Source: Spirosoma fluviale
GTDB lineage: Bacteria > Bacteroidota > Bacteroidia > Cytophagales > Spirosomataceae
Direction of reading: 5' to 3'
NCBI GenBank assembly: GCA_945883625.1
Contig: CAMCXW010000013.1
Location: forward strand, 1 to 52,209
DNA: 52,209 bases
Shown here: in pieces, positions 29,661 to 31,173 of the stretch
Layout: each line of letters opens with the position of its first letter
Numbering within the stretch: the first letter of the stretch is position 1
Translations under genes and position numbers: made by a program
Notes under the pieces: model-generated
Databases searched by the model: none
The model's input: only the letters and a program-made list of their open reading frames with translations
Told to the model about the DNA's origin: nothing

Positions 29661-30125
29661 TTAAAATAAGGGTGTATTTCTAATTAAACTTTCCTCTAAA
29701 GAAATAAAAGTTTCTGTACGCTGAATCCCTGTAACTCGTTGTATTTTATCATGAAGTACCTCACGCAAATGTTGGGTGTCCCGACAAATAATTTTAGCAA
29801 AAATACTGTAAATACCTGTGGTATAATGAATATTGACAACCTCAGGAATAGCTTCCAATTGCTTGGCTACATCTTCATATAATGAGCTTTTATCCAAATA
29901 AATACCTAAAAAAGCAGAAATATCCCAACCGATTTTAGAATAATCAATTAGTAATTGTGCTCCTTTTACAATTCCCAACGTTTCCATTTTCTTCATCCGA
30001 ACATGTACAGTTCCACCAGAAACATCTAAGCGCTGTCCTATCTCAGTATATGGTAAATTTGCATTTGCCACTAAGATTTCCAAAATTTTATAATCTAAAG
30101 GGTCTAAATCAATCTTCTTTTCCAT
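29661..30125 (-). CDS. Lrp/AsnC-family transcriptional regulator
   Basis: A 154-residue regulator with an N-terminal winged helix-turn-helix (LDPLDYKILEILVANANLPY and IGQRLDVSGGTVHVRMKKME) and a C-terminal RAM ligand-binding domain (AIPEVVNIHYTTGIYSIFAK). Such proteins form dimers or octamers and sense amino acids. It precedes sufB by 79 bases and diverges from the tRNA-like gene across about 130 bases. A TACCTTTG on the minus strand (30247-30240) could be its -7 element, with no -33 match. Whether it controls sufB or the RNA is unknown. Confidence 0.92.
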   Translation of the reverse strand: MEKKIDLDPLDYKILEILVANANLPYTEIGQRLDVSGGTVHVRMKKMETLGIVKGAQLLIDYSKIGWDISAFLGIYLDKSSLYEDVAKQLEAIPEVVNIHYTTGIYSIFAKIICRDTQHLREVLHDKIQRVTGIQRTETFISLEESLIRNTPLF

Positions 30126-30194
30126 GAAATTATTTCAATAATTTTATCTTTTGATTGCAAAATATCCAATAAACTTATATTATTATTAAAATAT

Positions 30195-30225
30195 TTTGAA
30201 ATTTTAAATCCATGACATATATTTG
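30195..30225 (+). promoter_or_regulatory. Consensus Bacteroidota promoter for the tRNA-like RNA
   Basis: TTTG at 30195-30198, a 19-base spacer, then TATATTTG at 30218-30225: an exact match to TTTG-N19-TAnnTTTG. Transcription should begin near 30230, about 30 bases before the acceptor stem of the RNA. No protein gene starts downstream before 30538. Confidence 0.75.
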
Positions 30226-30259
30226 ATCCATGATAATTACAAAGGTAGTTATTTTTCAT

Positions 30260-30402
30260 TGTAGGGTGATGAAATTGGCAGACGTGCCCTCCTGTCTCGG
30301 GGGTGGTGGTTCTAGGATAAACACGGCATAATGGGTTGACCACTAAATCAGTTCTGTGTCGCGGCTAACTACACCTTGGAGGTTCGAATCCTTCTCCTAC
30401 AG
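30260..30402 (+). tRNA. tRNA-like RNA, class II body, GUC anticodon, giant variable region
   Basis: A cloverleaf of about 143 bases. The acceptor stem pairs TGTAGGG (30260-30266) with TCCTACA (30395-30401), then G73 at 30402; CCA is not encoded. The D-arm is Leu-like (ATG 30269-30271 with CGT 30283-30285, GG at 30277-30278). The anticodon stem is CCCTC (30287-30291) with GGGGG (30299-30303); the loop CTGTCTC gives anticodon GTC at 30294-30296. The T-arm is GGAGG, TTCGAAT, CCTTC (30378-30394). Between them lies a variable region of 74 bases; a class II tRNA has about 10-20. In it TGGTGGTT (30304-30311) can pair with GACCACTA (30338-30345). GUC, C38, G73 and G2-C71 are Asp identity bases; G10 is A and position 37 is T. 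It may be a strange tRNA, a non-translational RNA or a decayed gene. The cloverleaf is seen; function is inferred. Confidence 0.65.
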
Positions 30403-30446
30403 CATTTTTATTATTTGTTTTTAGTTTGTTGATGAAGTGTAATGTT

Positions 30447-30477
30447 AAAAGCAATTCTATTTTAGGATTGCTTTTTT
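30447..30477 (+). terminator. Intrinsic terminator after the tRNA-like RNA
   Basis: AAAAGCAAT (30447-30455) pairs perfectly with ATTGCTTTT (30467-30475), and inner pairs extend the stem to 13 with a three-base loop. A T-run (30472-30477) follows. It gives the tRNA-like gene a primary transcript of roughly 250 bases, so processing at the 3' end would be needed. Confidence 0.8.
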
Positions 30478-30494
30478 ATATTAATTAAAGTCTA

Positions 30495-30502
30495 TATATT
30501 TG
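30495..30502 (+). promoter_or_regulatory. Possible -7 element for the 1-Cys peroxiredoxin
   Basis: TATATTTG lies 35 bases before the peroxiredoxin ATG. The expected TTTG position falls in the preceding terminator T-run and reads only T-rich, so the promoter is incomplete. Confidence 0.4.
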
Positions 30503-30537
30503 ATAGAATAAATATATTATACTTAAACCCTACTATT

Positions 30538-31173
30538 ATGTCACTACGTTTAGGCGATATCGCACCAGATTTTAGTGCAGACACAACACAAGGTCCTATC
30601 AAATTTCATGAATGGATAGAAAATTCATGGGTATTATTTTTTAGTCATCCGGCTGACTTCACTCCTGTTTGTACAACTGAATTGGGTAAAACCGCCATAT
30701 TGGCTGGAGAATTTGAAAAAAGAGGCGTAAAAGCTATAGCCATTTCAGTAGATGATTTAGCATCGCATAACAAATGGGTACCCGATATTGAGGAAGTAAA
30801 TAATGTTAAAGTTAATTTCCCAATTATTGCAGATCCAGAGAAAAAAATAGCACTACTTTATGATATGATTCATCCGAATGCATCTGAAAAAGCTACTGTA
30901 CGGTCGGTATTTATAATAGGAACTGATAAAAAAATCAAATTAACATTAACTTATCCTGCATCAACAGGTCGTAATTTCACCGAACTTTTACGTGTAATTG
31001 ATTCGTTGCAATTAACAGCTAATTATCAAGTGGCAACTCCTGCAGATTGGGTAAACGGTGAAGATGTAATTATCACACCAGCTGTATCAAATGAAGATGC
31101 TTTGACTAAATTTCCTAAAGGATTTACGTCCGTAAAACCTTATTTACGTGTAACGCCACAACCTAACTTTTAA
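30538..31173 (+). CDS. 1-Cys peroxiredoxin (Prx6 family)
   Basis: A 211-residue peroxiredoxin. The active site is FSHPADFTPVCTTELG with the peroxidatic Cys45, and it is the only cysteine in the protein, so the enzyme is of the 1-Cys type. The extended C-terminal domain (from about 165, with PADWVNGEDVIITPAV) is typical of Prx6. It detoxifies hydrogen peroxide and lipid peroxides, with reduction by an external thiol. The transcript is bounded by terminators at 30447 and 31193, so it is a single-gene unit. Confidence 0.93.
   Translation: MSLRLGDIAPDFSADTTQGPIKFHEWIENSWVLFFSHPADFTPVCTTELGKTAILAGEFEKRGVKAIAISVDDLASHNKWVPDIEEVNNVKVNFPIIADPEKKIALLYDMIHPNASEKATVRSVFIIGTDKKIKLTLTYPASTGRNFTELLRVIDSLQLTANYQVATPADWVNGEDVIITPAVSNEDALTKFPKGFTSVKPYLRVTPQPNF

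Follow-up and report, generated by a model that had tools for sequence, protein, structure and literature searches.

A tRNA-like RNA of Bacteroidota and their phages with apparent aspartate-charging and GatCAB amidation signals and a proposed role in asparagine synthesis

The 52,209-nucleotide stretch of the Spirosoma fluviale genome analysed here (contig CAMCXW010000013.1; the window) contains a tRNA-like RNA in which class and identity disagree: the body has the three-base-pair D-stem and layout of a class II tRNA, while the anticodon loop CTGTCTC (GUC, with U37 and C38), G73 and G2-C71 are bases of aspartate identity. Is such an RNA functional, and if so, what would it carry? A sequence-only reading of the window had described these features, all of which are present, and had proposed that the RNA is either charged with aspartate and used outside normal decoding or a decayed tRNA.

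Structure and distribution of the RNA family

The four cloverleaf helices that had been proposed all pair in the window and covary among 51 distinct relatives. In the alignment of these relatives the drawn structure (Table 1) had 97.9% of its cells paired and both-sided changes in 21 of its 28 pairs, and it scored 0.424 for covariation, where shuffles averaged 0.184; none of 500 shuffles equalled the score or matched the paired-cell and double-change values. The same structure slid along the alignment scored at most 0.126, a control biased towards the drawn structure because this was drawn from those same sequences; the compensatory pair types are independent of that bias. Covariation thus supports the four-armed cloverleaf with 7/5/5 stems of canonical tRNAs (RF00005). 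An RNAalifold structure (model R1) with a GGCA/TGCC hairpin instead of the D-stem was rejected and replaced by model R2, since the D-stem covaries. In the genome of the window, ARAGORN placed tRNAs at 25 loci, and all of them have, as the RNA does, an encoded C74 following the discriminator base, so the 3' end of the RNA family looks like that of host tRNAs.

Table 1. Features of the RNA and its flanks (positions in the window)
Feature	Position	Strand	Remarks
AsnC-type Lrp/AsnC regulator gene	29661..30125	-	head-to-head with the RNA; NCBIfam and PDB match
Bacteroidota-type promoter, TTTG-N19-TATATTTG	30195..30225	+	ends 34 nt upstream of the RNA
Mature tRNA-like RNA	30260..30403	+	G73 at 30402, encoded C74 at 30403; covariation
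Acceptor stem, 7 bp	30260-30266/30395-30401	+	covariation and copy counts
D-arm, 3-bp stem 30269-30271/30283-30285	30269..30285	+	G18G19, a single base, then A21; no base 20a; covariation
Anticodon arm CCCTC-CTGTCTC-GGGGG	30287..30303	+	GUC at 30294-30296, U37, C38; stem changes compensated
Long variable arm	30305..30375	+	Pv1, Pv1b and Pv2; covariation
Pv1	30305-30308/30372-30375	+	covariation
Pv1b, 3 bp	30313-30315/30369-30371	+	covariation, strongly compensated
Internal loop GATAAA/CTAA	30316-30321/30365-30368	+	family consensus RAYAAA/CTAA
Pv2 domain	30322..30364	+	one-base bulge; covariation
Conserved GGGTTGACCAC motif within Pv2 domain	30333..30343	+	in many members, not all
T-arm GGAGG-TTCGAAT-CCTTC, 5-bp stem	30378..30394	+	covariation
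Terminator-like hairpin	30447..30475	+	downstream of the RNA

The annotation programs that had been recommended as a check gave no support: ARAGORN did not call the RNA, neither in the window nor at 15 relative loci, Rfam made no call on it at the gathering threshold, and a permissive Rfam search of 30100-30550 returned three weak matches, all on the opposite strand and below gathering. The folding energy of the window RNA is likewise unexceptional (z 0.58). These results are in line with a decayed tRNA or a chance structure, a reading to which we nonetheless attach hardly any probability: the cloverleaf covaries strongly, with compensatory helix changes in the relatives, which refutes it, and the RNA is conserved across many families, across classes and in phages. 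It is a genuine, unannotated RNA family.

The variable region folds otherwise than had been proposed from the window. An eight-pair helix (30304-30311/30338-30345) forming a pseudoknot with a second one (30321-30326/30354-30359) finds no backing in the relatives, where 56.4% of the cells are paired, 46 of 500 shuffles are as good by paired cells and 56 of 500 by covariation score, and double changes are not in excess; the eight-pair helix is complete in two of the 107 distinct copies that bear the GGGTTGACCAC motif (pattern found in 107 of 180 distinct copies). Instead, a long arm is built from Pv1 (with variants GGTG/CACC, GATG/CATC, GAAG/CTTC and GTGG/CCAC), a short 5' bulge, Pv1b, a conserved internal loop and Pv2, the last being 76.7% paired with a covariation score of 0.633 against 0.219 in shuffles. 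The arm seems dispensable, since the member in genome G047 (L271:1038-1114, 77 nt) has no long variable arm and keeps the same acceptor signals, with the loop CTATCTC.

Short palindromes are a further feature of the arm. Viral copies (L166-L214) carry perfect palindromes of 6-10 nt and varied sequence (for example GCGCGC, GCATGC, GCTAGC, GTTGCAAC and GCCGGCCGGC) between GACCAC and CTAA, in 23 of 29 distinct viral tails against a mean of 8.2 and a maximum of 15 in 200 shuffles, which suggests RNA dimers formed through kissing loops; in cellular copies palindromes are not enriched (15 of 55 distinct tails, where shuffles averaged 14.1). In Cyclobacterium/Algoriphagus-like copies (20 distinct copies, such as L051:190-314 and L082:5365-5504) the palindrome GAGCTC in the end loop of Pv2 is unchanged while the surrounding stem varies.

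Of 395 Bacteroidota genomes sampled, 40 carry the RNA with a match of 88 bits or more, and the arm-less relative of G047 (70 bits) is added to them and counted within the 41 and the 38 positives given below; matches below 63 bits, mostly of about 85 nt, were read from length and score as ordinary tRNA-Leu and are not counted. By BLAST, 31 of 37 genomes of the genus matched, that of the window included, the six without a match being at most 86% complete; among 22 other genomes of the order 13 matched, each with a copy that model R2 confirmed. Beyond the class, copies occurred solely in family f66 (3/3 genomes). The exact 22-base anticodon-arm pattern is present in at least 120 stretches of named genomes, and the matches listed (80 of at least 120) belong to the Cytophagales and related families, the Saprospiraceae, the Chitinophagales and two Flavobacteriaceae/Cellulophaga records; among the genera represented are Dyadobacter, Spirosoma, Runella, Emticicia, Algoriphagus, Cyclobacterium, Flammeovirga and Aquirufa. 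Two Aquirufa genomes have an RNA equal to that of genomes of the window's own genus (L078 with L026, L108 with L013), which by itself would point to Aquirufa, or its GTDB genus, as the probable source of the window. Tandem copies, two to five per locus, were seen in L086, L034, L037, L044, L270 and L276, and Flammeovirga pacifica has five of them. A plasmid search gave no match, and keyword searches of the open-licence PMC literature showed no description of the RNA among the papers listed; it may have been described elsewhere.

The anticodon-arm pattern also matches 49 IMG/VR contigs. ARAGORN placed ordinary tRNAs in 23 of these 49 viral stretches and none in the other 26; L198 carries 19 tRNAs and a tmRNA, L205 12 and a tmRNA, and L193 13, a tmRNA being present also in the viral stretch L169, and the nearest tRNA lies 4 nt away in L166, L168, L184 and L198. 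L198 and L185 also encode phage-type RNA ligase, DNA ligase and chaperonin genes. In the 636-kb phage LR756504.1, a copy has a different anticodon stem with the same loop, and nine tRNAs lie within the 20 kb examined. A search of phage records with the window as query returned one record, and another query none. The position of phage copies among tRNAs supports a tRNA-like processing of the RNA.

Charging, amidation and decoding features

The bases that the family keeps and those that it loses were counted in two sets. In 73 distinct covariance-model matches, U35, C36 and C38 are invariant and G34 is present in 67. U stands at position 37 in 66 of them, C in six, G in one and A in none, a purine being absent from 72 of the 73; 58 have U33, and the other 15 have G, A or C there. 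The window copy has U33, but U37. U33 and a purine at position 37 are near-universal in decoding tRNAs, and the family as a rule lacks the combination. The second set comprised the 234 of 236 distinct copies that could be counted, a final GC being required. U1-A72 is found in 233 of them, G2-C71 in 234, U3-A70 in 233 and G73 in 234, the last count being partly built in because of the required final GC, and exactly one base, hence no base 20a, lies between G19 and A21 in all 234. All 72 complete covariance-model rows start with TGT and end with ACAGC, and anticodon stems are diverse (CCCTC/GGGGG, CCTCC/GGTGG, CCGTC/GACGG, CTAGC/GCTAG and TCTCC/GGAGA).

According to PMC9976931, aspartate identity resides in G73, G34, U35, C36 and C38, plus G10, with G2-C71 as a minor element; that paper also calls G1-C72 crucial for this identity and reports the pair to be strictly conserved among bacterial tRNA-Asp. 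For amidation of Asp-tRNA, U1-A72 is the enabling signal, and G1-C72 and U20a block it (PMC9976931 and PMC4206432). The RNA has all of the major AspRS determinants (G34 at the frequency given above) except G10, a mismatch pointed out already in the sequence-only reading, and it has U1-A72 and no U20a, whereas the tRNA-Asp of the same genome has G1-C72 and U20a. Judged by these letters, the RNA is a chimera of AspRS identity signals and GatCAB amidation signals. With U1-A72 in place of G1-C72, AspRS might charge it poorly.

A place on the ribosome, whether as an atypical tRNA-Asp that decodes or as a tRNA that mistranslates, would be compatible with the cloverleaf, the encoded C74, the GUC anticodon, and the ordinary tRNAs that accompany the RNA in 23 of the 49 viral stretches, of which three also hold a tmRNA. 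We regard it as very improbable: U33 is lost in 15 of 73 matches and A37 occurs in none of them, the long structured arm is ill suited to it, an ordinary tRNA-Asp is present in the genome of the window (a check suggested beforehand) and in some of the RNA-bearing viral stretches (L190, L193 and L198), and the association with gatB described below is not predicted by it.

GatCAB, asparagine supply and gene neighbourhood

The chimeric signals predicted a link to GatCAB, which was set down before the gatB search; the presence of GatCAB was judged by GatB alone. In 98 genomes of the class, gatB was found in 38 of 38 RNA-positive genomes (G047 included) and in three of 60 RNA-negative ones, 57 of which were scored as gatB-less through absence among the matching genomes (Fisher 5e-24, a value that ignores shared descent, members of a clade not being independent). 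Two families contain both states, f22 (seven genomes with both, three with neither) and f23 (11 with both, two with neither), so that 23 of 23 agree. The genome of the window has its gatB at G000:C45:1351-2775, and all 41 RNA-positive genomes have one. Among genomes of the class that were checked for GlnRS and have it, the negatives being hand-picked, all 62 are concordant for RNA and gatB (33 both, 29 neither). AsnRS was over the cut-off in all 80 genomes examined for it, and GlnRS in 33 of the 41 RNA-positive ones, which leaves GatCAB without an obvious decoding substrate there. GlnRS was not over the cut-off in the other eight (G000, the genome of the window, which is 88.8% complete, and G222, G443, G047, G329, G331, G397 and G339), where GatCAB may serve tRNA-Gln and its presence is little informative; in family f66, gatB is present in all three genomes and GlnRS over the cut-off in none.

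Within the class, gatB occurs without the RNA in G099, G210 and G258. The GatCAB of G099, where GlnRS was not over the cut-off, is probably needed for tRNA-Gln, and the gatB matches of G210 and G258, near 1e-105 in an otherwise gatB-less family, may reflect a divergent gene or contamination. In other classes most of the remaining genomes carry gatB without the RNA. In G088, G203 and G235, GlnRS and a stretch resembling the GatB C-terminus share one long frame, which suggests a fusion of GlnRS with a GatB tail.

Asparagine supply was compared in 80 genomes, namely the 41 RNA-positive ones and 39 hand-picked negatives, 30 of these from the class. A shorter AsnB, which on its length we take to be E. 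coli-type, was recognised as a frame of 528-578 aa (or two in a 1204-aa frame) with a match breaking near model position 385. Among the matches listed, down to E = 5e-22, it occurs in 24 of the 30 negatives of the class and in none of the 41 positives, an inverse pattern that points to free asparagine. Other proteins that appear by sequence to belong to the AsnB family (unbroken matches in frames of about 571-717 aa) are over the cut-off in 35 of 41 positives, and AsnA is present in four of 41 positives against seven of the 30 negatives of the class, so the RNA route need not be the sole source of asparagine. In six of the 41 positives (G000, G376, G206, G325, G305 and G246) there is neither an AsnB over the cut-off nor an AsnA. 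A survey of 2014 described bacteria, including Bacteroidetes, with AsnRS, GlnRS and GatCAB and no asparagine synthetase, and took such gene sets as consistent with asparagine made on tRNA-Asn (PMC4206432). One bacterial-type AspRS was over the cut-off in each of 19 genomes examined. The His of chain 4rmf (named Asp/Asn ligase), a residue that presumably bears on whether AspRS discriminates, is found at the aligned position in none of the 19.

The gene neighbourhood points in the same direction. Among clusters of neighbouring frames at 213 loci the most widely shared is Lrp/AsnC (136 loci), followed by a SufB-type cluster (60 loci). At the 206 loci with a placed RNA, an Lrp/AsnC frame is present in 134, always directly upstream and divergent, with the edge of the open frame 46-288 nt from the RNA, and by distinct RNA in 96 of 155 groups; the 72 loci without it include some that are merely short. 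The regulator of the window scores 157.7 bits with the NCBIfam AsnC model (curated cut-off 227) against 44.5 with Lrp, and its best PDB match is AsnC, 2cg4. AsnC of E. coli is the activator of the asparagine synthetase gene asnA, of which asnC is the divergent neighbour. The RNA thus sits at the place of an asparagine synthetase gene.

The same divergent gene, together with a large structured arm containing a conserved internal loop, could speak for a regulatory tRNA mimic that binds AspRS or GatCAB, or senses aspartate or asparagine charging, with the AsnC-type protein as a partner. We consider this quite unlikely: the 77-nt form of G047, devoid of the arm, keeps the acceptor signals and the UCUC part of the loop, which makes the charging surface the conserved part.

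The sequence-only reading had also proposed an exact promoter and a terminator. A terminator-like hairpin is indeed present, and the likelier promoter is of another kind: sigma-70-type matches (nine, against 4.6 in shuffles, sd 2.3) are weak evidence, while a site of the type TTTG-N19-TATATTTG, which we take to be the Bacteroidota-type consensus, precedes 80 of the 190 copies at cellular loci, with tandem copies counted, and is absent from all 190 shuffled upstream stretches. Between promoter and RNA, an imperfect inverted repeat, TAATTAC-AAAG-GTAGTTA (30230-30250), is kept with changes in the genus and is a candidate leader hairpin or AsnC-type operator. Between RNA and terminator, a 3' trailer, GTTTTTAGTTTGTTGATGAAGTGTAA (30414-30446), is kept across families (also L031 and L035).

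A proposed carrier for asparagine synthesis and its relation to known systems

The probable role of the RNA is that of a dedicated non-decoding tRNA, which would carry aspartate for asparagine synthesis by AspRS and GatCAB. The comparative evidence for this role in asparagine supply is strong, and some of it had been predicted beforehand; the pathway itself can be sketched as follows. RNase P and the CCA-adding enzyme would mature the RNA as a tRNA. A discriminating AspRS, one that does not charge tRNA-Asn, would load aspartate onto it because of the GUC anticodon, and GatCAB would amidate Asp-RNA to Asn-RNA, accepting it because of U1-A72 and the missing base 20a. In a putative release step, asparagine would be set free from Asn-RNA for AsnRS and metabolism. 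On the ribosome Asn-RNA(GUC) would place asparagine at aspartate codons; it may be kept off by U37, by the long variable arm and, where a lineage has lost U33, by the base that replaces it. The AsnC-type protein would switch the RNA in response to asparagine, as AsnC does asnA in E. coli. Points against this reading are the absence of G10 and the six of 73 copies that lack G34, and it does not directly account for the phage copies.

What had been observed from sequence alone was therefore confirmed in part, and its interpretation is partly supported: aspartate charging for a use outside decoding fits, as aspartate identity bases are kept, decoding features are lost and gatB co-occurs in the class, and decay does not hold. 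The U1-A72 signal, the divergent AsnC-type gene and the link to GatCAB go beyond it.

A different use of the charged RNA can be imagined. Non-proteinogenic tRNA-Gly serves cell walls in staphylococci, and Asn-RNA or Asp-RNA might likewise be the amino-acid donor for a transferase making a non-ribosomal product, GatCAB merely preparing it. The charging and amidation signals and the lost decoding features fit a donor as well, and synthesis of free asparagine has no known release enzyme. We nevertheless judge a donor role improbable, because the top neighbours are the AsnC-type regulator (136 of 213 loci) and the SufB-type cluster (60 of 213), in the 22 largest neighbour clusters, for the most part without family-search annotation, no transferase stood out, and the inverse pattern of E. 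coli-type AsnB favours free asparagine.

Synthesis of asparagine on the RNA resembles the tRNA-dependent route of Bdellovibrio, Deinococcus and Thermus (non-discriminating AspRS, tRNA-Asn and GatCAB; PMC4206432) in the similar enzymes proposed, in U1-A72 and in the setting of AsnRS, GlnRS and GatCAB. That route, however, uses a decoding tRNA-Asn as its carrier, together with a relaxed or duplicated AspRS, whereas here the carrier would be a separate chimeric RNA with an aspartate anticodon, seemingly unfit for decoding.

Among class II tRNAs, bases 8-26 of the RNA are nearly those of tRNA-Leu(gag) of the same genome, with which it shares the three-base-pair D-stem and the class II layout; it differs from bacterial tRNA-Leu in G73, U1-A72, the aspartate anticodon loop with U37, and a variable arm of several times the length, in which additional helices are conserved. 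Like tmRNA (RF00023), it is tRNA-like and no ordinary decoder, but it has a full cloverleaf with a covarying anticodon arm, where tmRNA has a tag reading frame and no anticodon arm. A replacement of tmRNA was rejected, an ordinary tmRNA being present in the genome of the window. Small stable RNAs within a phage tRNA cluster are known from T4 (RNA C and RNA D), whose setting is alike. Allo-tRNAs and selC* tRNA-Cys are also unusual class II-like tRNAs that came from genome mining; as given in PMC7609411, they have longer acceptor and anticodon stems resembling tRNA-Sec, whereas the RNA has a 7/5 body, aspartate and GatCAB signals and a much longer variable arm.

We lean towards a wider reading, in which a tRNA class permanently off the ribosome serves as a reusable RNA cofactor, being aspartylated, amidated and discharged, and would form one of the main routes by which several Bacteroidota lineages obtain free asparagine, controlled by a divergent asparagine sensor and carried by phages, often beside ordinary tRNAs. 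Its large structured arm was missed by the annotation programs tried (ARAGORN and Rfam). If the proposed role is true, it would explain why many Bacteroidota retain GatCAB despite having AsnRS and GlnRS, and how asparagine may be made where there is no AsnA, no AsnB over the cut-off and no evident relaxed AspRS, and the RNA would provide a clear example of a tRNA dedicated to amino-acid biosynthesis and excluded from decoding.
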